Shown here one piece after another: positions 1,355-9,986 of a stretch of 64,000 bases of DNA. The notes under the pieces are model-generated. The model saw nothing but the letters and a program-made list of their open reading frames with translations, made no database searches and was not told where the DNA came from. Source of the stretch: Rhizobium indicum (lineage in GTDB: Bacteria; Pseudomonadota; Alphaproteobacteria; Rhizobiales; Rhizobiaceae); assembly GCF_005862305.2 (NCBI RefSeq), contig NZ_CP054021.1, forward strand, positions 4,691,501 through 4,755,500. Direction: 5' to 3'. How positions within the stretch are numbered: the first letter of the stretch is position 1; every line of letters starts with the position of its first letter. Made by a program: the position numbers and the translations under genes.

Positions 1355-2848
1355 ATGGCAATCTATTATGTGAATCCAGCGATAGGCTCCAACAGCAACA
1401 ATGGAACGAGCGAGGACACGCCGTTTTCGTCGTTCTGGGCGGTAGAAAACTTGAAACTGCAGTCGGGCGACAGCGTGCTGCTTGCCGCCGGAAGCGTGTT
1501 CAACGACCAGCTTGACCTTAAATACTCCGGCAGCGTTGCGGCTCCGATTACTATCGGCAGTTATGGTGTCGGCGATGCGCCGGTCATCCATAGCCCCAAC
1601 GACGGCATCCACAGCCTCTATGCATCGAACATCGTCATCGAGAATATCAAGATCTCCGACACCGGCGGCGCGGCCATCTATGGCGGCAGTGTTTCGAACT
1701 GGACGGTCCGCAACGTCGAGGTCGATCACACCGGACTGGCGGGCAAGTCAGGTTCGATCACCTTCAGGACCGGCTCGAACATCACCATCGAAAACAGCAC
1801 GATCAACGACGTCAACGGCGACGGCGTCTGGATCGAAAAAGTCAACGGCGTCAATTTTCTCAACAACACCGTCACCAATGCCCACGGCACCGCGGCAGAT
1901 GCCGTCCAGATGAACGACAGCAGCAATATCGTGATCAGCGGCAATTACCTCGACCAGACGGGCGCCGCTACGCCGAAGGGCGTCATCGCGCTCGTTCGGT
2001 CTGTAAATGCCGTGGTCGAGGACAACGCGATTATCGGTGGCGGCTTCGGGATCGGCGCACAAGCCGGCACTAACGTCGCTATCCACGACAACGATATTTC
2101 AGGCTATGGCGGCTACAGCTGGTCCTACGCCATCGGTCTCGGCGACCAGGGCAATACGCGGGACTACGATATATCGGGCAACTATATCCATGACGGCGCA
2201 TGGGGCGTGGTGGTCAGCGCCGCCGGCACGACCAGTTACGTTCGCGAGGGTATCGAGATCCACAACAACGTCTTCGACGACCTGACGCAGGCAGCGCTGA
2301 AGGTCGACAGGCCGGCATCCGGCTCCTTCCACGACAATGTTATCGCCAGCGATGTCAAGCCCTACAGCATATCTCCCGCCATCATCGCCGCGAACACCTT
2401 CCCCGTCAGCAACAACACGACGCTCGACGAGGCCCAGGCGACGATGCTTGCGAGCAGCGATAGTCTCGCGGTCGGCGATACGACGCACACGGACACGGCG
2501 CCGGCGCTTGTCGCAACCCATGACAGCCTGAAAATCTCCTCCGATCTGGATGGCGCCCATTACGGCAATCTCCTCGAAAACGACAGCTCGGCCAATGGAA
2601 CCCTGCTGCTTCGCCGCTTCGAGGGCGAATTCGTCGACAAGGACGGCGTGACGCTGACCGGCCAATACGGCTCCATCCATGTCGACAGTGACGGCGATTA
2701 CACCTATACGGCCGACGCGGCAAAGCTCGCCGGACTTAGCGGAGACGTGAGCGACACCTTCCACTACAAGATCTCCGATGGGACTTCGCTACATTTCGAC
2801 ACGGATACGCTGAGCATCTCCATCCATGTGGATGACCTGCTGAGCTGA
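1355..2848 (+). CDS. Beta-helix exoprotein with C-terminal VCBS-like domain
   Basis: A complete 497-residue paralogue of the gene at the left edge. There is no Sec signal peptide: the protein starts MAIYYVNPAIGSNSNNGT, the usual opening of parallel beta-helix proteins. Residues about 40-340 form beta-helix coils, about 385-490 form a VCBS-like domain with NLLENDSS and SIHVDSDGDYTYT, and the end DTLSISIHVDDLLS matches the C-terminus of its neighbour. Export by a type I (ABC/HlyD/TolC) system, as for rhizobial PrsDE substrates, is inferred from the missing N-terminal signal and conserved C-terminus. An AAGG sits about 5 bases before the ATG. The enzymatic role, if any, is unknown; C5-epimerase- and lyase-like folds share this architecture. 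Confidence 0.85.
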   Translation: MAIYYVNPAIGSNSNNGTSEDTPFSSFWAVENLKLQSGDSVLLAAGSVFNDQLDLKYSGSVAAPITIGSYGVGDAPVIHSPNDGIHSLYASNIVIENIKISDTGGAAIYGGSVSNWTVRNVEVDHTGLAGKSGSITFRTGSNITIENSTINDVNGDGVWIEKVNGVNFLNNTVTNAHGTAADAVQMNDSSNIVISGNYLDQTGAATPKGVIALVRSVNAVVEDNAIIGGGFGIGAQAGTNVAIHDNDISGYGGYSWSYAIGLGDQGNTRDYDISGNYIHDGAWGVVVSAAGTTSYVREGIEIHNNVFDDLTQAALKVDRPASGSFHDNVIASDVKPYSISPAIIAANTFPVSNNTTLDEAQATMLASSDSLAVGDTTHTDTAPALVATHDSLKISSDLDGAHYGNLLENDSSANGTLLLRRFEGEFVDKDGVTLTGQYGSIHVDSDGDYTYTADAAKLAGLSGDVSDTFHYKISDGTSLHFDTDTLSISIHVDDLLS

Positions 2849-2911
2849 CAGGGATGCCGGCAGGAAATGGCGTTGTATCGCGGCGGCATTCCGCCCAGCA
2901 CTTGCGAAGTC

Positions 2912-3193
2912 TCATTGATCGCCGAGCAAGATCCTGATGACGTCGACTTCGATTTCCGCGCAGATGATCTCGTATTCGGTGATGATTGCGGGATCGGCCG
3001 ATCTATCCCGACGCATGCGATCGAGGACGGCGCAGGCTTCGCCGTAGGCGCCGCATAATTCGTAAAAATGGGGCTGGCTCGCCGCAACTGCTCTGATCGT
3101 TGCCCGCGTCGCAGGCAGCCTCATCATCAGCCTGGCCAGCCCCTGTTCCGCGGCTTGCCGGGTGAGGTGGGCTACGCCTTCTTTCCTGACCAT
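2912..3193 (-). CDS. Hypothetical protein, 93 aa
   Basis: The frame stays open upstream to a TTG at 3322, but the ATG at 3193 is preceded by GAGGAA at good spacing and is taken as the start. The product is alpha-helical and charged, with RLMMRLPATRATIRAVAASQ followed by a stretch rich in Cys, Tyr and Glu (YELCGAYGEAC...EYEIICAEIE) and no membrane segment. It is not a family I can name. It converges on the beta-helix gene and is followed upstream by the anti-sigma gene, with no sign of co-transcription. Confidence 0.6.
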   Translation of the reverse strand: MVRKEGVAHLTRQAAEQGLARLMMRLPATRATIRAVAASQPHFYELCGAYGEACAVLDRMRRDRSADPAIITEYEIICAEIEVDVIRILLGDQ

Positions 3194-3332
3194 GCCGTCA
3201 TTCCTCGCTGCCTGTGTTTTCCGATCCAGGGGGTACGCAATACTCACCCACCCCTGACTAGTACGCAGGAATGCTGCATCTGGTTTCATGCCGGATGAAG
3301 GTTTAGTGGCGCAGTGCCGCAAACAGCCTGTG

Positions 3333-3977
3333 CTACCAGCGCAGGAGGCGGGGGCCGAACAGCGCGCCGATTCCGCCGGTCAAGAGGATGCCGAGCGAAT
3401 ACCAGAGGGTGACGAAGGGCAGGCCGTTTTCCGTGCAGAACCAGGAATAGACCCAGGCGCCGGATGCGCCGGCGGCAATGCCGGCGATGAAGCCAGTGAT
3501 GCCGAGGTTGCTCGGGGCGCCGCCACGGAGAACCCAGGTATTTGCGATCAGGATCGGCATGGCAAAGGCAAAGATCAGCAGTGGGCAATGCAGGGCGGAG
3601 GAGCCGAGCACCAGCACGGGGTAGCTTGCGGCCGGCGACAAAGTGAGCTGAATGACCGCCAGGACGGCGAGGGTAAGTATGATGGCCGCGGCAATCCCGA
3701 AAAAGCGCCCCTCCGTGCCATCCGGCCGGGACAGGCGGTAAACGGCTGCGAAGGCGGCGACTGCAAGCAGGGCATTGTAGGCGGACTTGATCCAGAAGAC
3801 CGGCAACATCAGCGCCTGCGCCATGTCGGTGCGAAGGCCGAGGACGATAAGCATCAGCAGCAGCGAGACTGCCAGAGCAGGCAGGATGGCGAGCACGAAG
3901 CGGCGTTCGAGCGCATGTCTCGGCACCGGCTTCAGATTCCGGACAAGGCTGTCGATCAGGTCCTCAGTCTCTCTCAC
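3333..3977 (-). CDS. nrsF: Anti-sigma factor of the NrsF/DUF1109 family
   Basis: 214 residues. A short cytosolic N-terminus (RETEDLIDSLVRNLKPVP) is followed by about six hydrophobic membrane segments, the layout of DUF1109 anti-sigma factors such as Caulobacter NrsF. These hold a SigF-type ECF sigma at the inner membrane and release it under oxidative or metal stress. Two Cys residues lie in the C-terminal half (SSALHCPLL and YSWFCTENG); paired cysteines serve as sensors in this family. The GTG start overlaps the sigma stop codon by four bases (GTGA), which implies translational coupling and matched stoichiometry. Confidence 0.85.
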   Translation of the reverse strand: MRETEDLIDSLVRNLKPVPRHALERRFVLAILPALAVSLLLMLIVLGLRTDMAQALMLPVFWIKSAYNALLAVAAFAAVYRLSRPDGTEGRFFGIAAAIILTLAVLAVIQLTLSPAASYPVLVLGSSALHCPLLIFAFAMPILIANTWVLRGGAPSNLGITGFIAGIAAGASGAWVYSWFCTENGLPFVTLWYSLGILLTGGIGALFGPRLLRW

Positions 3978-4522
3978 ATCCCACCTCGCAATCTTGCCGC
4001 CAGCGCCTTGATGCCCCTGTGAACGCCGACCTTGACCGCCGATTCCGACTGTCCGGTGCGGCTGGCGGTATCGGCCACCGACTGCCCCTCGAGCTTGACC
4101 TGACGGATCAGCTCCTGCTGGTGCTGCGGCAGGCCGTTCAACAGCCGTTCGACATCCATGCGCGCTGCAATCGCATCCTCCCTGAAGTCGTCTTCGATCT
4201 CCTCGTCCAGTTCTATTTCCGCCTTGTACCGGCCGCCATGCTTCCGGTGGTGGTCGATCAGCTTGTAGCGGGCAATCGAGAAGAACCACGCGGTGAATGG
4301 CCGCTCCCTGTCATAGGTCGCCCGGCGCGAATGCAGCGCCAGCAACGTCTCCTGCACGAGATCTTCCGTGTCGGATTTCGCCGTAGTGCCGATCCGCCCG
4401 CCATAATAACCGACGAGCAGGGTTCGCAACGTCACGAGCAGACGCCGATAGGCTGCCTCGTCCCCGTCGAGGGAAAGAAGCATCAGCATCTTCAGTGCTT
4501 GTTCCGAATGGGCGCTCGTCAT
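3974..4522 (-). CDS. sigF: ECF sigma factor, SigF type
   Basis: 182 residues with both ECF domains. Region 2 includes DTEDLVQETLLALHSRR and FTAWFFSIARYKLIDHHRKH; region 4 includes LPQHQQELIRQVKLEGQSVA followed by a helix-turn-helix ending SESAVKVGVHRGIKALA. It directs RNA polymerase to stress promoters and is coupled to the DUF1109 anti-sigma just downstream. A GTAACC-N15-CGAAT element on its own strand (4563-4538) lies just upstream, so autoregulation is likely. If so, transcription begins within about 10 bases of the ATG and the leader is very short. Related rhizobial sigmas (S. meliloti RpoE1/RpoE4) respond to sulfite, and Caulobacter SigF to chromate and cadmium. Confidence 0.88.
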   Translation of the reverse strand: MTSAHSEQALKMLMLLSLDGDEAAYRRLLVTLRTLLVGYYGGRIGTTAKSDTEDLVQETLLALHSRRATYDRERPFTAWFFSIARYKLIDHHRKHGGRYKAEIELDEEIEDDFREDAIAARMDVERLLNGLPQHQQELIRQVKLEGQSVADTASRTGQSESAVKVGVHRGIKALAARLRGGM

Positions 4523-4537
4523 GTCGTCTGCAATATC

Positions 4538-4563
4538 ATTCGGGTGGATGACGCTTTGGTTAC
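4538..4563 (-). promoter_or_regulatory. Candidate SigF-dependent promoter of sigF-nrsF
   Basis: On the minus strand GTAACC (4563-4558) is followed after 15 bases by CGAAT (4542-4538). This nearly matches the published Caulobacter SigF element, GTAACC-N16-CGAA. It sits 16 bases before the sigF ATG. Confidence 0.6.
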
Positions 4564-4668
4564 AGGTGGGTTCAAAAATCTTCCGGCGGCAATTCAAAGT
4601 GTACAGCGTCCCTTGCGCGTCTCCAAAAGACGTGCGGCGCTGTAGCGCTATCACATAAGCGTGAGGCT

Positions 4669-4695
4669 GTAACCGCCTTGGCAAGGGGATCGAAT
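4669..4695 (+). promoter_or_regulatory. Candidate SigF-dependent promoter of the mrpX operon
   Basis: GTAACC (4669-4674), exactly 16 bases, then CGAAT (4691-4695) matches the known SigF consensus. The predicted transcript would start near 4702, about 55 bases before the ATG of the Met-rich peptide, and run into the cytochrome and molybdoenzyme genes. Confidence 0.7.
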
Positions 4696-4756
4696 TCAGG
4701 ACTGTGAGCCGTCGGCGGGTGCCGGCGGACATGTCAATCGATCCGAGGAGACCCTC

Positions 4757-5026
4757 ATGACCAAGATCCTTTCCAGCCTTGCCGCCTGCACCTTCGTCAT
4801 CGGCCTGTCGCTTGCCGGCGCCGCCAGCGCCCAGAGCAGCGATGCCATGAAGAAAGACAGCATGAAGACCGACACGATGTCGAAGGACACCATGTCCAAG
4901 GATGCAATGTCGAAGGACGCAATGGCGACCGGCAGCACCAAGGCCGACTGCATGCACAATGCCGGCATGGAGAAGGACACGATGAAGAAGGACACGATGA
5001 TGAAGGCCTGCGACGCGATGAAGTAA
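4757..5026 (+). CDS. mrpX: Periplasmic methionine-rich MXKDX-repeat peptide (MrpX-like)
   Basis: 89 residues: a Sec signal peptide cleaved after AASA (about residue 25), then a 64-residue mature part with 12 Met, two Cys and repeated five-residue units of the form M-x-K-D-x (MSKDT, MSKDA, MKKDT). This is the pentapeptide MXKDX family. In Azospira suillum, MrpX of this kind is a sacrificial scavenger: its Met residues are oxidised by hypochlorite and then reduced by a YedY-type reductase, all under SigF/NrsF. The gene diverges from sigF, follows a SigF-type promoter and precedes a molybdoenzyme pair, the same gene set. An AGGAG lies ahead of the ATG. Confidence 0.8.
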   Translation: MTKILSSLAACTFVIGLSLAGAASAQSSDAMKKDSMKTDTMSKDTMSKDAMSKDAMATGSTKADCMHNAGMEKDTMKKDTMMKACDAMK

Positions 5027-5112
5027 GCTTTAGCCGCGGTCGCTGAAGCTATTTGGCCGGCGGCCGCGTCCTTTTTCGCGAAGACCTTTCATGTCGATCC
5101 GGAGGAACTACA

Positions 5113-5955
5113 ATGGCCACGACCGATGCCGGCATGGCGAGCGGACGCACGCTCTTCTACCGCCATGGCCTGCTGGTGCGCCTGTCGCACTGGGTAAACG
5201 TGCTGTGCATGACAGCGCTGCTGTACAGCGGCCTGCAGATATTCAACGCCCATCCGGCGCTCTATTGGGGCCAGTACGGTGCCGACAACGATCCGTCCTT
5301 CATTTCCATGGTGGCCGAACAGGAAGGCGATGCGCTGAAGGGCGTGACGCACTTGGGCGGATTGAGCTTCGATACGACGGGCATTCTCGGGGTTTCGAAT
5401 GTCGACGGCGAGGCCGCGGTGCGCGGCTTTCCGAACTGGCTAACCTTGCCGAGCTACCAGGATCTGGCATCGGGCCGGCGCTGGCATTTCTTCTTTGCCT
5501 GGCTGTTCGTCATCAACGGCTTCATCTATCTCGCCTATGGTTTCGTCAGCCGGCATTTCCGCCGCGATCTGCTGCCGGCGGCCGAAGAGCTGAAGCCTTC
5601 GCATCTCGGCCATGAGATCGTCAGTCATGCCCGGCTGCGCTTTCCCAAGGGGGCCGAGGCCCGCCACTACAATACGCTGCAGAAACTCGCCTATGTCGCC
5701 GTGATCTTCGTGCTGTTGCCGCTGATGATCGGGACAGGGCTTACCATGTCGCCGGGCTTCAACGCGGTCGCGCCCTGGCTGCTCGATCTGTTCGGCGGCC
5801 GGCAATCGGCCCGCACGCTGCATTTCCTGACCGCCTTCTCGCTCGTCGCCTTCGTCGCCGTGCATGTGGCGATGGTGCTGGTCTCGGGCGTGTTCAACAA
5901 TTTGCGTTCGATGGTCACCGGTTATTACGACATCGGGCAGGGAGGAAAGTCATGA
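5113..5955 (+). CDS. Membrane cytochrome b (cytochrome b561-type), electron donor to the molybdoenzyme
   Basis: 280 residues; start chosen at the ATG after GGAGGAA (5101-5107). Four hydrophobic segments carry conserved His residues (VRLSHWVNVL near residue 25, RRWHFFFAWLF near 125, RTLHFLTAF near 240, AVHVAMVL near 255), expected to bind two b-type haems. A soluble loop lies between the first two segments. Its stop overlaps the start of the molybdoenzyme by four bases (ATGA). By analogy with YedZ/MsrQ it would pass quinol or flavin electrons across the membrane to that enzyme. It is a cytochrome b561-like protein and not a close MsrQ by eye. Confidence 0.8.
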   Translation: MATTDAGMASGRTLFYRHGLLVRLSHWVNVLCMTALLYSGLQIFNAHPALYWGQYGADNDPSFISMVAEQEGDALKGVTHLGGLSFDTTGILGVSNVDGEAAVRGFPNWLTLPSYQDLASGRRWHFFFAWLFVINGFIYLAYGFVSRHFRRDLLPAAEELKPSHLGHEIVSHARLRFPKGAEARHYNTLQKLAYVAVIFVLLPLMIGTGLTMSPGFNAVAPWLLDLFGGRQSARTLHFLTAFSLVAFVAVHVAMVLVSGVFNNLRSMVTGYYDIGQGGKS

Positions 5956-6728
5956 GCCGCATCATCACCAGGCGTCGCTTCCTGATCGGCGCGACCATGA
6001 CGGCATCAGCGCTGGGGCTCGCCGGCTGCGATGCCCTCGTCGAAAACGATCGGACGAAATCGGTGTTGAAGATCGCCGAAGGCCTCAGCATGAAGACGCA
6101 GCGCTTCCTGCTCGGCGACGACGCGCTCGCCCGCGAATTCACCGAAGCCGATATCTCGCCGACCTTCCGCGCCAACGGCACGAGCATGCCCGACAATGCC
6201 CGCTATATCGACTGGATGAACCAGCGGTTTTCGAGTTGGAAGCTCGAGGTCGGCGGGCTGGTCGACAAGCCGATGCAATTGTCGCTGGCGGAGCTGAAAG
6301 CCCTGCCGGCCCGCACGCAGATCACAAGGCATGACTGCGTCGAGGGCTGGAGCGCGATCGGCAAATGGACCGGCGTGCCGCTCGGCGCGCTGCTGCAGGC
6401 GGCGGGCCTGAAACCCGAAGCCCGCTACATCGTCTTCCACTGCGCCGACGAATATGAAAAGACGCTCGACGGCAGCGGCTGGTATTACGAAAGCATCGAT
6501 CTCGTCGATGCGTTCCACCCCCAGACGATCCTTGCCCACACCATGAACGGCCGCGATCTCGAAGTCGCCCATGGCGCGCCGCTCCGGCTCCGGGTCGAGC
6601 GCCAGCTCGGCTACAAGCAGGCAAAATATCTGACCGGCATCGAAGCCGTCGCCGATCTCGGCCAGCTCTACGGCGGCAATGGCGGCTTCTGGGAGGATCG
6701 CGGTTATGAATGGTATGCGGGCATATAG
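5952..6728 (+). CDS. Tat-exported molybdopterin oxidoreductase (sulfite oxidase/MsrP fold)
   Basis: 258 residues. The N-terminus has a twin-arginine motif, TRRRFLIG, and a lipobox, LAGC, so it is probably a lipoprotein folded before export. The oxidoreductase molybdopterin domain follows, with the Mo-ligating Cys in TRHDCVEGWSAIGKW and conserved cofactor residues near GAPLRLRVERQLGYKQ. It lacks the C-terminal dimerisation domain of true sulfite oxidases, as YedY/MsrP does. Translationally coupled to the cytochrome gene. Likely role: reduction of methionine sulfoxide in the periplasm, including on the Met-rich peptide. Sulfite oxidation is the main alternative, because related rhizobial sigma factors respond to sulfite. 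Confidence 0.82.
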   Translation: MSRIITRRRFLIGATMTASALGLAGCDALVENDRTKSVLKIAEGLSMKTQRFLLGDDALAREFTEADISPTFRANGTSMPDNARYIDWMNQRFSSWKLEVGGLVDKPMQLSLAELKALPARTQITRHDCVEGWSAIGKWTGVPLGALLQAAGLKPEARYIVFHCADEYEKTLDGSGWYYESIDLVDAFHPQTILAHTMNGRDLEVAHGAPLRLRVERQLGYKQAKYLTGIEAVADLGQLYGGNGGFWEDRGYEWYAGI

Positions 6729-6770
6729 GCGGGGTGCCCCGACCGACGAGGGTGCAGGAAGCTCCTTCGC

Positions 6771-7547
6771 TCAGGCAGCGAGGCCGATCGTAATGGTGGC
6801 GGACAGCACGCCGCTGTCGAGCTTTTCGAAATCGAACATGTGGTCGGCGGCATCCTCCGGGATGAGGCCGTCCTCGTCGTTGCGCGTATCGCGGGCAGGG
6901 CGCCCGAGATAGTCGGGATGCTCGCCGTAGATGATGTCGCTCAGCACATCGTCGAAATAGATCTGGCTGACGAGAAGCTCCTTGCCCTCGACGAGGATGC
7001 GGCAATGAACATGCGGCGTGCGGCCCTTGTACCATCCGGGATAGGCCGTCAAAAAGCTTGCCTGCCCCTTGGCATTCGTCAGCTGGCGGCCGCGGAAGGC
7101 GAGCCCGCTGATCGCCTCGGCATCGCCGAAGGTGCACATCTCAGCAGCCTCGCGGCCGGAATAGATGCCGCGATGATCGGTATGCCAGATTTCGATATCG
7201 GCATTTTCGATCGGCCGGCAGTCGGTTGCTTGGACGAGCCGAACGGCCAACCGCAAAGGCAGCCCGGCCGTTCCTTCTGAGATGTCCTGACGAGCCGGGA
7301 CATTGTTGACATGGCAGGGGCCGAGGGTCTGCGCGACGGTCACGACGCAATTCGGACGGGTACGGAAGAGCGGCTCAGGCAGTTTTTCCAAGGTAACCGA
7401 CTTTGTGCCGCCGCTTACGAAATCCGTTCCCTTCCAGTCGAATGTCCTGGCGGCAACAGTGACATGCCGCCGCGGCCAGATCGCTACCGCCGCCACGGAT
7501 GATGCGACAATGGCCGCACCTCCAAGCACAAGGGTTCGCCTCTTCAT
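6771..7547 (-). CDS. Intradiol ring-cleavage dioxygenase-like protein, exported
   Basis: 258 residues with an N-terminal membrane or signal segment (MKRRTLVLGGAAIVASSVAA). The catalytic-domain pattern is present: QTLGPCHVNN, IEIWHTDHRGIYSG with the first metal-ligand Tyr, then a Tyr-His-His cluster in YPGWYKGRTPHVHCRI. These are the Fe(III) ligands of protocatechuate and catechol dioxygenases. Exported members of this superfamily are common in proteobacteria and mostly uncharacterised. AAGGAAG precedes the ATG. It converges on the molybdoenzyme gene; substrate unknown. Confidence 0.8.
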   Translation of the reverse strand: MKRRTLVLGGAAIVASSVAAVAIWPRRHVTVAARTFDWKGTDFVSGGTKSVTLEKLPEPLFRTRPNCVVTVAQTLGPCHVNNVPARQDISEGTAGLPLRLAVRLVQATDCRPIENADIEIWHTDHRGIYSGREAAEMCTFGDAEAISGLAFRGRQLTNAKGQASFLTAYPGWYKGRTPHVHCRILVEGKELLVSQIYFDDVLSDIIYGEHPDYLGRPARDTRNDEDGLIPEDAADHMFDFEKLDSGVLSATITIGLAA

Positions 7548-7562
7548 CTGTCTTCCTTCGCT

Positions 7563-7800
7563 TCAAGACGCAGGATCTAAGGAGGGTAAACCGAAAATTC
7601 CAATTAAATCTGAGCAGAGAAGCTTTATGCCTGTCAGCTCATCGAGCTTGTCCATGAGCTGGTCCTGGAAGGCCGGGTCCGGAACGTCGGCGGCGGGCCT
7701 GTGCCGTTCGCGGTGATACCAGTAGCCACCGGTGGTTCTGGCGGCGGTATCGTCGCTGACCGCGAGCCACAGGATCTTCCTTTCCTGCGGCCCTTGCTCC
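7563..7800 (-). pseudogene. Remnant of a short-chain dehydrogenase (C-terminal part only)
   Basis: On the minus strand one frame reads ERKILWLAVSDDTAARTTGG, then YWYHRERHRPAADV, then PDPAFQDQLMDKLDELTG, before running into unrelated residues and a stop at 7565-7563. This is the characteristic C-terminus of a group of SDR oxidoreductases (a WLA..SDDPAAR.TG.YW pattern). Upstream the frame breaks and no Rossmann domain is present, so only a decayed fragment of about 55 codons remains between the dioxygenase-like gene and the NmrA-like gene. Confidence 0.5.
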
Positions 7801-7854: not shown

Positions 7855-8604
7855 TCAGTCTGACATAGACAGCCAGTCGGTGTATCGCAGCGAACCCGCC
7901 CGTACCCCCTTGCGCGGAAGCAATGTGTTGTCGTTCAGTTCGACGCCATAGTAGCGCGCGCTGTCGTCGGTCATAACCTGGCGTGTGTCTTCGTTTGCGG
8001 TGAGGTGCATGCGGGCAATTTCGTCGAGGCCGAATTGCTCGGGCCCGCAGATCTCTATCGTGTCATTCCTTGCTGCTCCCATCGCCAGTTCGGCCAGGAT
8101 TTCAGCAACGTTGTCGGCCGCTATGGGCTGTATGGACGCCGAGGGAAGCCGGAAGCCGTCTCCATCTGCCGCCATGTCGACCACGCCGCCGATGAACTCG
8201 AAGAATTGCGTGGAATGGAGGATGGTATAGGGCCGCCGCGCTGCCCGGATGAGATTTTCCTGCACCATCTTGGCGTGGAAATAATCGCTTTCGACAAGGC
8301 GAGGCGTTCCCACCACGGAAAGCGCGATATAGTGGCCGACGCCTGCATCCGCGGAAGCCGCCAGCAGATTCCGGGTGGAGGCCTTGAAAAACGCCAGCGC
8401 GGAGCTGTCGCCAAATGACGCGGCGTTGGTGACGTCGATGACGACGTCGGCTCCTGCTATGGCTGACCTCAGGCCTTCTCCCGTCACGCTGTCGACTCCT
8501 GTGAGAGACGGGGATGCGCTGACCACTTCGATACCTGCCTGTCGAAGATCCTCGACGAGCCGCGTTCCGATGCGCCCGCTCGCTCCCATGACCGTAATTT
8601 TCAT
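7855..8604 (-). CDS. NAD(P)H-binding atypical SDR, NmrA-like (copy 2)
   Basis: 249 residues with an N-terminal dinucleotide fold (MGASGRIGTRLVEDL, the GxxGxxG motif at residues 7-13). The Rossmann strands continue to DVVIDVTNAASFGD, and YTILHSTQFFEF follows, typical of NmrA/NAD(P)-binding proteins that lack the classical YxxxK site. GGAG precedes the ATG at good spacing. It is a paralogue of the gene at 9231; the two flank a cupin on the same strand. Function may be NAD(P)H sensing or reduction of a small ligand; no specific substrate can be named. Confidence 0.8.
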   Translation of the reverse strand: MKITVMGASGRIGTRLVEDLRQAGIEVVSASPSLTGVDSVTGEGLRSAIAGADVVIDVTNAASFGDSSALAFFKASTRNLLAASADAGVGHYIALSVVGTPRLVESDYFHAKMVQENLIRAARRPYTILHSTQFFEFIGGVVDMAADGDGFRLPSASIQPIAADNVAEILAELAMGAARNDTIEICGPEQFGLDEIARMHLTANEDTRQVMTDDSARYYGVELNDNTLLPRKGVRAGSLRYTDWLSMSD

Positions 8605-8773: not shown

Positions 8774-9178
8774 TCACTTCACCGGCATGACAACCGGAGC
8801 GTCTTTCTTCTTCAGCAGCACGACGATGAACTTCGCCGGTTTGGACGTGCTCGCATTGCGGCTGACCAGGTGAATGTCGGAAGGACCTTCGTAAAAGGTC
8901 TCTCCCGGCGATAGGGTGACTTCCTTTTCGCCTTTGACCTGCATCACGATCGAGCCCTCCAGAACGTAGACGAATGCATTCGCCTCATGTTTGTGAATAG
9001 GCGAGGAACCTCCCGGCCCATACTCGACCGATATCATCAGCCCTTGCTTGCCGGGGTAATTCGGAAGATCCTTTTTCATGAGCGGTGTGACGGCTGCGCC
9101 GTCTTCGGCAGCAACCGCCAAAGTGCCGAAAAGGCAAACCGTAGCCGACACATATAACGATAACAAAGCTGAATTCAT
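8774..9178 (-). CDS. Secreted single-domain cupin
   Basis: 134 residues; start taken at the ATG preceded by AAGGA, giving a clear signal peptide (ALLSLYVSATVCLFGTLAVA). The mature part is one cupin barrel: motif 1 around SPIHKHEANAFVYVLEG with two His and one Glu as metal ligands, motif 2 around LSPGETFYEGPSDIHLVSRN. Periplasmic cupins of this type are mostly uncharacterised. It lies between two paralogous NmrA-like genes, all on the minus strand with gaps of about 50 and 170 bases, so co-transcription with the gene at 9231 is plausible. Confidence 0.78.
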   Translation of the reverse strand: MNSALLSLYVSATVCLFGTLAVAAEDGAAVTPLMKKDLPNYPGKQGLMISVEYGPGGSSPIHKHEANAFVYVLEGSIVMQVKGEKEVTLSPGETFYEGPSDIHLVSRNASTSKPAKFIVVLLKKKDAPVVMPVK

Positions 9179-9230
9179 TGCCGTAATCCTTCTGCTCGTT
9201 GAATGCGGATGTGGGTTTTGATGCCTTGAT

Positions 9231-9986
9231 CTAGGTCGGCCGTTGGGACTGTCGAAACCAATCCACAAGGCCGATCTTGCCGAGCCTCGCGCCCTCGCCG
9301 GGCACAAGCGAGCGATCGTCCAGTTCAGACCCGAAGTAGCGCGCATGAACGTCTGCCTCGACCCTCCTCGGATCGTTGATCGCTTTCAGATACCGGGCAA
9401 CGATCTCGTGCATGGGGCCGCGCTCAGGTCCGGCAATCTCGATTGTGCCGTTAAGCGGCTTTGAAAGCGCGACATCCGCCATCACATCGGCAACGTCGTC
9501 CGATGCGATGGGCTGGAAAGCTGCGGGAGAAAGACGCGCGACGGTGCCGATGGTGGCTTCGTCGGCGATGCCCTTCAGGAATTCGAGGAATTGGGTGGAG
9601 TGGACGATCGTGTAGGGGATGGGCGATGCCTTGATGAGTTTCTCCTGGGCGAGTTTGGCCCGGAAGTAGCCGTTTTCAGGCAGGCGCTCCGTTCCGACGA
9701 TGGAGAGCGCAATGTGGTGCTTGACGCCGGCCTTGGCTTCCGCAGCGAGCAGATTGCGGCCCGAGGTTTCGAAGAAATCGAGGACCGCCTTGTCTTCCCA
9801 CGACGGTGAGTTTGCAAGGTCGACGACGACGTTGGCGCCAGCCAGCGCTTCTGCCAGGCCCTCGCCGGTGATGGTATTGACGCCGGTGCTTGGCGAGACA
9901 GCCAGCACCTCGTGGCCTTTAACGCGCAGACGCGCCGCGGTCTTGGACCCGATGAGCCCAGTGCCGCCGATAAGAACGATTTTCAT
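9231..9986 (-). CDS. NAD(P)H-binding atypical SDR, NmrA-like (copy 1)
   Basis: 251 residues, aligned end to end with the product at 7855: MKIVLIGGTGLIGSKTA against MKITVMGASGRIGTRLV, NLLAAEAKAGVKHHIALS against NLLAASADAGVGHYIALS, and YTIVHSTQFLEF against YTILHSTQFFEF. GGxGxIG forms the nucleotide-binding turn. A strong GGGAGG ribosome-binding site lies 6-7 bases before the ATG. Probably the first gene of a minus-strand group with the cupin and the second copy. Role unknown beyond NAD(P)H binding. Confidence 0.8.
   Translation of the reverse strand: MKIVLIGGTGLIGSKTAARLRVKGHEVLAVSPSTGVNTITGEGLAEALAGANVVVDLANSPSWEDKAVLDFFETSGRNLLAAEAKAGVKHHIALSIVGTERLPENGYFRAKLAQEKLIKASPIPYTIVHSTQFLEFLKGIADEATIGTVARLSPAAFQPIASDDVADVMADVALSKPLNGTIEIAGPERGPMHEIVARYLKAINDPRRVEADVHARYFGSELDDRSLVPGEGARLGKIGLVDWFRQSQRPT

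Follow-up and report, generated by a model that had tools for sequence, protein, structure and literature searches.

A sigma factor module of Rhizobium indicum with a methionine-rich peptide, a b561-type cytochrome, a putative Tat-lipoprotein molybdoenzyme and a candidate operator

The locus and its genes

This report concerns a gene module of Rhizobium indicum that lies at 3333-6728 of a stretch of 64,000 nucleotides (nt) (contig NZ_CP054021.1, positions 4,691,501 to 4,755,500; here, the whole stretch is called the window). The module comprises an extracytoplasmic function (ECF) sigma factor, an NrsF-like anti-sigma factor, a methionine-rich MXKDX peptide, a membrane cytochrome b and a molybdoenzyme of the SUOX fold (Table 1). 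A five-gene module had been proposed here by an earlier reading of the letters without database searches (the sequence-only reading), and a profile search of the proteins against Pfam and NCBIfam identified all five. Published work is cited by its PMC number.

Table 1. Features of the module and their positions in the window
Feature	Position	Strand	Basis
nrsF-like anti-sigma, 214 aa	3333..3977	-	PF06532, 222 bits (cut-off 26.8)
ECF sigma factor, 182 aa, ECF16-type	3974..4522	-	Pfam Sigma70_r2 and r4_2
ECF16 promoter of sigma-nrsF, TGTAACC-N15-CGAA, no palindrome upstream	4539..4564	-	also aligned in relatives
Palindrome TCACATAAGCGTGA, candidate operator	4651..4664	+	alignment of relatives and genome scans
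ECF16 target promoter of the peptide operon, TGTAACC-N16-CGAA	4668..4694	+	pattern search and alignment
MXKDX methionine-rich exported peptide, 89 aa, Cys-x19-Cys tail	4757..5026	+	TIGR02953, 77.1 bits
b561-type cytochrome b, 280 aa	5113..5955	+	PF01292, 84.9 bits (cut-off 30.1)
SUOX-fold molybdoenzyme, 258 aa, predicted Tat signal and lipobox	5952..6728	+	PF00174, 127.5 bits

The sigma and DUF1109 anti-sigma genes are coupled as the sequence-only reading had described, the GTG start of nrsF overlapping the sigma stop codon (3974-3977), with the correction that NrsF starts at 3977; the ATG of the molybdoenzyme gene overlaps the cytochrome stop codon (5952-5955). On sequence grounds, the peptide, cytochrome b and SUOX-fold enzyme genes form one putative operon opened by the peptide gene, and ECF16-type promoters precede both this operon and the sigma-nrsF operon. 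These two divergent promoters in the intergenic region compare with 0.02 expected in shuffled sequences. The NrsF partner and the TGTAAC/CGAA promoters suggest that the sigma factor is a member of ECF16. The NrsF family match is the only one in the whole genome, and the protein scores 142.8 against an NCBIfam NrsF equivalog cut-off of 300. Its Cys131 and Cys181 are the counterparts of C129 and C179 of OsrA/AbcS, and a cysteine pair 49-51 residues apart was found in 52 of 53 related rows (it is missing in locus L142). No sigma-70 promoter was found inside the module, its terminator-like sites numbered one, fewer than in shuffles, and no known RNA families were found at 2500-7600. A foreign island was considered on the basis of G+C content and rejected, the module (60-64%) being similar to its neighbours.

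Two sets of related loci were used for comparison. A cytochrome profile search in named genomes gave at least 568 relatives, of which the best 80 loci were kept. A TIGR02953 search of 398 Pseudomonadota genomes gave 54 with a match, 35 of them above the cut-off, and the 54 stretches around these matches outside the window are referred to as MXKDX-seeded loci, several of the weaker matches being possibly not true family members. Aligned rows throughout are related sequences and not independent.

The peptide exceeds the TIGR02953 (penta_MxKDx) cut-off of 41 bits and carries 12 methionines in a 65-residue stretch after residue 24 (13 with the start methionine), which bears out its earlier description as a 12-methionine MXKDX peptide; it has no Pfam match. 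Its C-terminal end, KADCMHNAGMEKDTMKKDTMMKACDAMK, holds a Cys-x19-Cys tail that is shared by 35 of the 40 best-80 loci with a peptide and by 7 of the 35 peptide rows of the MXKDX-seeded loci. In most Rhizobiaceae rows a histidine stands two places after the first tail cysteine, and a disulfide or a metal site is possible at this cysteine pair.

The cytochrome and molybdoenzyme pair

Among the best 80 loci, the molybdoenzyme gene directly follows the cytochrome gene in all 80, an MXKDX peptide gene was found in 40, and peptide, sigma, cytochrome and enzyme occur together in 38; since relatives share the gene order of the window, it is not due to chance. Rhizobium johnstonii 3841 (L002) has this locus as well. 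Other neighbours within 2.5 kb were P209, a secreted protein of about 209 residues with no Pfam family above its cut-off (37 of 80 loci, 11 of these with the peptide), and DUF1223 (14 loci, six of these with the peptide), and six loci had neither peptide, P209 nor DUF1223 at this distance. The three contexts were clustered in a tree of the enzyme, with at least four changes in peptide presence (a quick tree with SH-aLRT support only). The P209 loci lie among L046-L081 (e.g. L047:5233-5862), and five loci with P209 and no peptide carry an ECF16-type sigma factor (L048, L050, L063, L068 and L079); P209 may be a further client of this reductase, or an accessory to it. In loci L010 and L073 the cytochrome frame is split into two overlapping open reading frames (ORFs), by a frameshift or a sequencing error.

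The pair was present in 22 of the 54 MXKDX-seeded loci, the other 32 having neither gene. All 22 loci with a reductase gene have a b561-type partner, eight of them also a sigma factor, and no MsrQ-like gene, nor an MsrP-like gene as best match, was found in any of the 54 (single-sequence queries, E 1e-4). Judging from these matches, MXKDX loci that hold a reductase usually pair it with a b561, and the idea of a local oddity was rejected. The sequence-only reading was thus right in calling the cytochrome b561-like (PF01292) and not a typical MsrQ, but not in treating this as a departure from MXKDX systems. Short b561 proteins (198-232 aa) occur in 12 of the 22 pairs, all outside the taxonomic class of the window and frequently in the order cytochrome-enzyme-peptide; three loci with a long b561 (L145, L149 and L163) also lie outside this class. 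Stand-alone MXKDX peptides, with no module gene found within 5 kb, were seen at L118, L120, L121, L124-L127, L129, L131 and L135, all from one family within the taxonomic order of the window.

Four histidines of the cytochrome (26, 125, 237 and 251) are invariant in an alignment of 37 sequences and would be enough for two b haems. The AlphaFold2 model is a helical bundle (pLDDT 85.6) in which a beta-rich insert at 64-104 separates long helices one and two; the short relatives lack this stretch. No similarity to the MsrQ of the same genome was seen in a two-sequence comparison (best E 0.14), and a search by sequence gave no match among solved structures.

The molybdoenzyme carries Cys129, by homology the molybdenum ligand, in RHDCVEGWS. 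Its AlphaFold2 model has a pLDDT of 80.3, and the best solved relative by sequence is 1xdq (57.9 bits), which we take to be E. coli YedY. The dimerisation domain that the sequence-only reading had found lacking gave no Pfam match either; its absence is however not distinctive, since MsrP also lacks it.

The family of the window enzyme (102 loci and the window, 103 rows) was compared with canonical controls, the best 30 canonical MsrP loci from an NF003767 search of 200 Pseudomonadota genomes; in a few control rows the script placed the twin-arginine (RR) motif before the probable start, and the MsrP of the window genome was checked apart. After its signal for twin-arginine translocation (Tat) the window enzyme has a lipobox, Cys26-Asp27. 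The lipobox cysteine was present in 100 of 103 family rows against none of the 30 controls, with an adjacent Asp in 91 of the 99 rows matching the lipobox pattern; Asp at position +2 retains lipoproteins in the inner membrane in enterobacteria. All 102 family loci have an RR motif (96 under a stricter motif), and this motif together with the lipobox cysteine gives the window enzyme the pattern of a Tat lipoprotein, probably lipidated at Cys26. A second cysteine, Cys164, is invariant in all 103 aligned rows (a loose pattern for it missed 10 of 102, the alignment giving Cys in all), where the controls have Thr (29 of 30) or Ser (one). The variable residue of CVE-[AG]-WS is G throughout the family, against 23 A and 7 G in the controls, and over 144 residues the enzyme shares 33% identity with the MsrP of the window genome.

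Canonical MsrP is likewise a Tat-exported catalytic subunit of the SUOX fold with CVE-[AG]-WS. Its membrane haem partner is MsrQ (PMC8076862), and the neighbour of the controls was MsrQ in 30 of 30 and b561 in none, unlike the window, as are the missing lipobox and the Thr at the place of Cys164. In the NF003767 search, 79 genomes scored above the cut-off at 398-506 bits, and among the matches listed all others stood at 105 bits or less, with none between 105 and 398. The genome of the window has canonical msrP and msrQ at C1:770047-771470, with its only PF01794 match at C1:771135, and the cytochrome-enzyme pair of the window is therefore an extra one. As far as alignments and scores can tell, the window pair is not MsrPQ and its enzyme falls in a separate subfamily. 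Conclusions transferred from E. coli MsrPQ may not hold for it, given the different kind of donor, the likely anchor and the extra invariant cysteine. The gene set is already known; the additions made here are that its reductase differs by sequence from MsrPQ, together with the palindrome described below. A search of freely accessible papers found none joining MsrP, b561 and methionine sulfoxide reductase.

The SUOX fold would also suit a role in sulfite oxidation like that of SorT, governed by a sigma factor that answers to sulfite, and in S. meliloti RpoE1 and RpoE4 respond to sulfite and drive sorT (PMC3511301). We consider this very improbable for the window. The enzyme scores far below the cut-offs of the SorA, SoxC and SorT models (64.8 against 600, 50.7 against 420 and 47.3 against 570), has no dimerisation domain, and resembles MsrP in its CVEGWS, unlike the sulfite oxidase (SO)-like paralogue of the same genome, which has ECAGNGR (locus L082); and the window operon lacks the cytochrome c or azurin gene that accompanies sorT. 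The sequence-only reading had appealed to related rhizobial sigma factors that respond to sulfite, but RpoE1 and RpoE4 are of ECF26, with other promoters, and it is RpoE7 that belongs to ECF16 (PMC6180224). Sulfite loses support because the sulfite-responsive sigma factors are ECF26 and the window promoters are ECF16, not of the ECF26 GGAAT...GTC kind (as we interpret a table in PMC6180224), and it was rejected as the inducer on this difference of class.

The palindrome upstream of target promoters

An alignment of 15 intergenic regions revealed an invariant TCAC...GTGA directly before the -35 element of the peptide promoter. In 44 loci with sigma and cytochrome genes in the orientation of the window, strict sites numbered 35 for targets and 30 for sigma operons (9 and 14 loci being without one), and TCAC-N6-GTGA stood 2-5 nt before the -35 element in 33 of the 35 target sites and in none of the 30 sigma sites (Fisher p 1.6e-16, on related rows). 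The DUF1223 class without peptide has the palindrome at 7 of 7 ECF16 sites, facing DUF1223. Across 64 distinct composites of palindrome and promoter, the gap to the -35 element was 3 nt (35) or 4 nt (29) and the -35/-10 spacer 17 (40), 16 (23) or 14 (1). The palindrome alone is rare, with 54 occurrences in 1.008 Mb of related loci.

Scanned for the composite, 397 genomes of the order yielded 27 sites, spread over 24 genomes, against one match in the reversed control, and 199 genomes of the family yielded 13 sites in 12 genomes, against none (the two scans share some genomes); among 289 genomes of the class only the window was found, against none in the control. Downstream of the 27 sites lay DUF1223 (10), peptide-cytochrome-enzyme (5), DUF2282 (4), which we take to be bufferin-type, P209-cytochrome (1), thioredoxin (1), methyltransferase (1) and other small proteins (5). 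At one DUF2282 locus the genes for MbnB/TglH/ChrH, DUF2063 and DoxX come next, a set that resembles one controlled by SigF in Caulobacter (PMC8224329).

In the R. indicum genome, TCACR-N4-YGTGA occurs 13 times against twice in the reversed control, several of the sites lying inside ORFs. The palindrome TCACATCGGCGTGA (G000:C3:287480, locus L263) begins 84 nt upstream of the start of an exported MsrA and is kept in 7 of 7 aligned Rhizobium promoters (the genome's own and six picked from 176 records). A wide ECF16 regulon was also considered and rejected: TGTAAC-N15-19-CGAA had 24 matches against 59 in the reversed control, and of the 22 other matches 14 lay inside ORFs longer than 450 nt and no convincing gene was found. 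Single sites of the ECF16 pattern near gene starts were noted at L174 and L188.

The palindrome is centred some 37 nt before the last base of CGAA, near -43 from the assumed start, a position that is that of class II activators. The start was placed 6 nt after the -10 element, as mapped for ecfF (PMC3420878). We infer that the palindrome is a candidate site of a second regulator. Several observations speak against this. No composite was found in the 288 other genomes of the class, which hold few close relatives, and the palindrome is missing at 9 of 41 target-type matches, namely L024 (where it stands some 12 nt farther upstream), L045 (a single mismatch), L074 and six matches in the MXKDX-seeded loci L134, L140, L142, L143 and L147, among which L143 comes from the taxonomic order of the window and the others are more distant; the two strict target sites without it are L024 and L032, the latter doubtful. 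The exported MsrA promoter has the palindrome without TGTAAC/CGAA and is conserved elsewhere too (mean column identity 77%).

The palindrome is unmentioned in the promoter passages of PMC8315932, PMC3420878, PMC3511200 and PMC6180224, and no literature search was aimed at it. It offers a handle for finding the missing regulator, and might account for the differing reports on ECF16 systems, which are said to respond to hypochlorite in one species but to copper in a second.

Proposed function and rival explanations

The bcrS-abcS/bcrXQP module of Brucella melitensis matches the window set in its five genes and their order, and likewise has an ECF16 promoter ahead of each operon, an MXKDX peptide and conserved anti-sigma cysteines (PMC8315932). 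It differs in that BcrQP are, by description, termed MsrQP homologues, whereas the window has a b561 partner and a lipoprotein-type enzyme, and in that a GntR gene adjoins abcS (PMC8315932) where an ORF without Pfam match (2912-3322) adjoins nrsF. Protein searches meant to identify Brucella BcrQ and Azospira YedZ1 named genera other than these two among the 120 matches listed for each. The sigF-nrsF-mrpX-yedY1-yedZ1 set of Azospira suillum, said to have been described by Melnyk in 2015, reportedly serves in hypochlorite defence, and is likened to the window set by description alone. Its sigF/nrsF control a methionine-rich peptide and a molybdenum methionine-sulfoxide reductase against hypochlorite (PMC5748585).

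From this analysis, the window set is probably an ECF16-controlled envelope-oxidation module for periplasmic methionine-sulfoxide repair, a system of the mrpX/bcrXQP kind such as the sequence-only reading had suggested. It is the best reading because set and order match the Brucella module, for which induction by hypochlorous acid (HOCl) and sigma dependence were shown and whose bcrXQP triple mutant had lower HOCl survival (PMC8315932). The constant neighbourhood of the cytochrome and enzyme genes, the MsrP-like features of the enzyme, its Tat-lipoprotein pattern, the conserved cysteine pair of NrsF and the target-promoter palindrome before the exported MsrA of the same genome support it as well. 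A role of the anti-sigma cysteines has been shown in Bradyrhizobium. The ECF16 sigma factor of that genus controls predicted peptide methionine-sulfoxide reductases (PMC3420878), and that of Caulobacter controls MsrPQ (PMC8224329).

In such a system, NrsF would be oxidised or attacked by metal, probably at periplasmic Cys181, freeing the sigma factor to transcribe both the sigma-nrsF operon and that of the peptide, cytochrome and molybdoenzyme. Once exported, the peptide, with its dense methionines and cysteine pair, would act as a sacrificial oxidant sink. The molybdoenzyme would leave the cytoplasm by the Tat route, be held by a lipidated Cys26 on the periplasmic side of the inner membrane, and reduce the methionine sulfoxide of the peptide back, with electrons that the b561 cytochrome would hand over from the quinol pool. 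A second factor on TCAC-N6-GTGA would gate the target operon and not the sigma operon. Lipidation of the enzyme, quinol as donor, the peptide as substrate and the palindrome-binding factor are presumptive parts of this scheme.

Several points weigh against methionine-sulfoxide repair. The Brucella peptide operon was tested as a triple mutant only, and that mutant showed no H2O2 effect (PMC8315932); S. meliloti ECF16 reporters were unresponsive to H2O2, Cd and chromate (PMC6180224). The molybdoenzyme falls below the curated MsrP cut-off (NF003767, 98.9 against 207 bits), so that homology is a less secure guide to its substrate than it seems. The inducer may be a metal, given that Cu, Cd and chromate act on the ECF16 system of Caulobacter (PMC8224329). 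The peptide's own role is the weakest link, the passages cited here vouching for it only through reference to the Azospira work.

This last point bears on the c3566-c3568 operon (OrhK/OrhR) of uropathogenic E. coli, which likewise joins a cytochrome, a molybdoenzyme and a small peptide: loss of either c3566 or c3567 impairs growth with tert-butyl hydroperoxide, which favours methionine-sulfoxide repair, but the sensitive mutants listed in the passage concerned do not include one in the peptide gene, c3568 (PMC8550376). Because no peptide phenotype is listed there, we graded methionine-sulfoxide repair slightly lower, and graded slightly higher the alternative that the pair is a redundant second MsrPQ repairing general envelope proteins, with the peptide incidental. 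The likely reaction would be the same, homologues are named MsrP/MsrQ in PMC8315932 and PMC8550376, and no MXKDX gene was found beside 40 of the 80 related pairs. We nevertheless think it quite unlikely, in view of the canonical msrPQ elsewhere in the genome, the cytochrome without similarity to MsrQ, the two bands of NF003767 scores and the peptide gene at the head of the operon.

The E. coli trios are under two-component control and not ECF16, and the reported site, TCACA-N15-TGTGA, has similar half-sites set further apart than in the window palindrome (PMC8550376). The E. coli plasmid NZ_CP069461.1 (L172) carries a trio of b561, molybdoenzyme and small protein behind a response regulator and a kinase and near IS26; its cytochrome is a short b561 of PF01292, and a near search of 5426 E. 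coli genomes found the trio in 73, in each case on a plasmid and never on a chromosome. In Rahnella the third gene of the trio is annotated as an MXKDX protein.

The SigF-NrsF system of Caulobacter, the ECF16 paradigm, resembles the window in controlling a molybdenum methionine-sulfoxide reductase but differs in its targets, MsrPQ and DUF692/DUF2282 operons, and in being induced by Cu, Cd and chromate (PMC3511200, PMC8224329). That its regulon is Cu-induced and that loss of sigF gives Cu sensitivity (PMC8224329) would fit a defence against copper (gold, silver), in which the Met/Cys/His peptide would be a periplasmic metal buffer, ECF16-NrsF the metal sensor, and the reductase would keep thioethers and thiols reduced for metal binding. 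The four DUF2282 genes behind the same composite promoter, the MbnB/TglH/ChrH, DUF2063 and DoxX genes that follow one of them, and the tail cysteines with their nearby histidine argue for such a role. Against it stand the five of 40 peptides without the cysteine pair, the lack of a Pfam match for the peptide, the response of the Brucella orthologue to HOCl, with metals unmentioned in the passages of PMC8315932, and the cost of a molybdoenzyme and a haem cytochrome for mere buffering. Copper defence seems to us an unlikely explanation, yet one compatible with methionine-sulfoxide repair: the HOCl-type and copper readings can be one programme, because both agents hit envelope thioethers and thiols.

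For Rhizobium and its relatives we lean towards a joint claim of ECF16 targets with two inputs and a separate Tat-lipoprotein reductase family. The second input would be a palindrome regulator acting from a class-II-like place at nearly all strict targets and at no sigma promoter; the reductase would use b561 as quinol donor and its second cysteine is possibly catalytic. The peptide/b561/lipo-molybdoenzyme, exported MsrA, DUF1223 and bufferin-type operons would then make up one envelope programme for methionine, cysteine and metal.

Outside the module, the window carries two similar adjoining proteins on the forward strand (72-887 and 1355-2848) that look like a duplication, the second with a right-handed beta-helix, NosD-like and C-terminal Ig-like domains. 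Convergent with the molybdoenzyme gene is an intradiol-dioxygenase-like protein (PF00775; 6771-7547, reverse strand) with an N-terminal signal or anchor, which scores far below the cut-offs of curated dioxygenase models. Further on, also on the reverse strand, two similar NmrA/NAD-binding proteins (7855-8604 and 9231-9986) lie on either side of a cupin protein that probably has a signal peptide (8774-9346).

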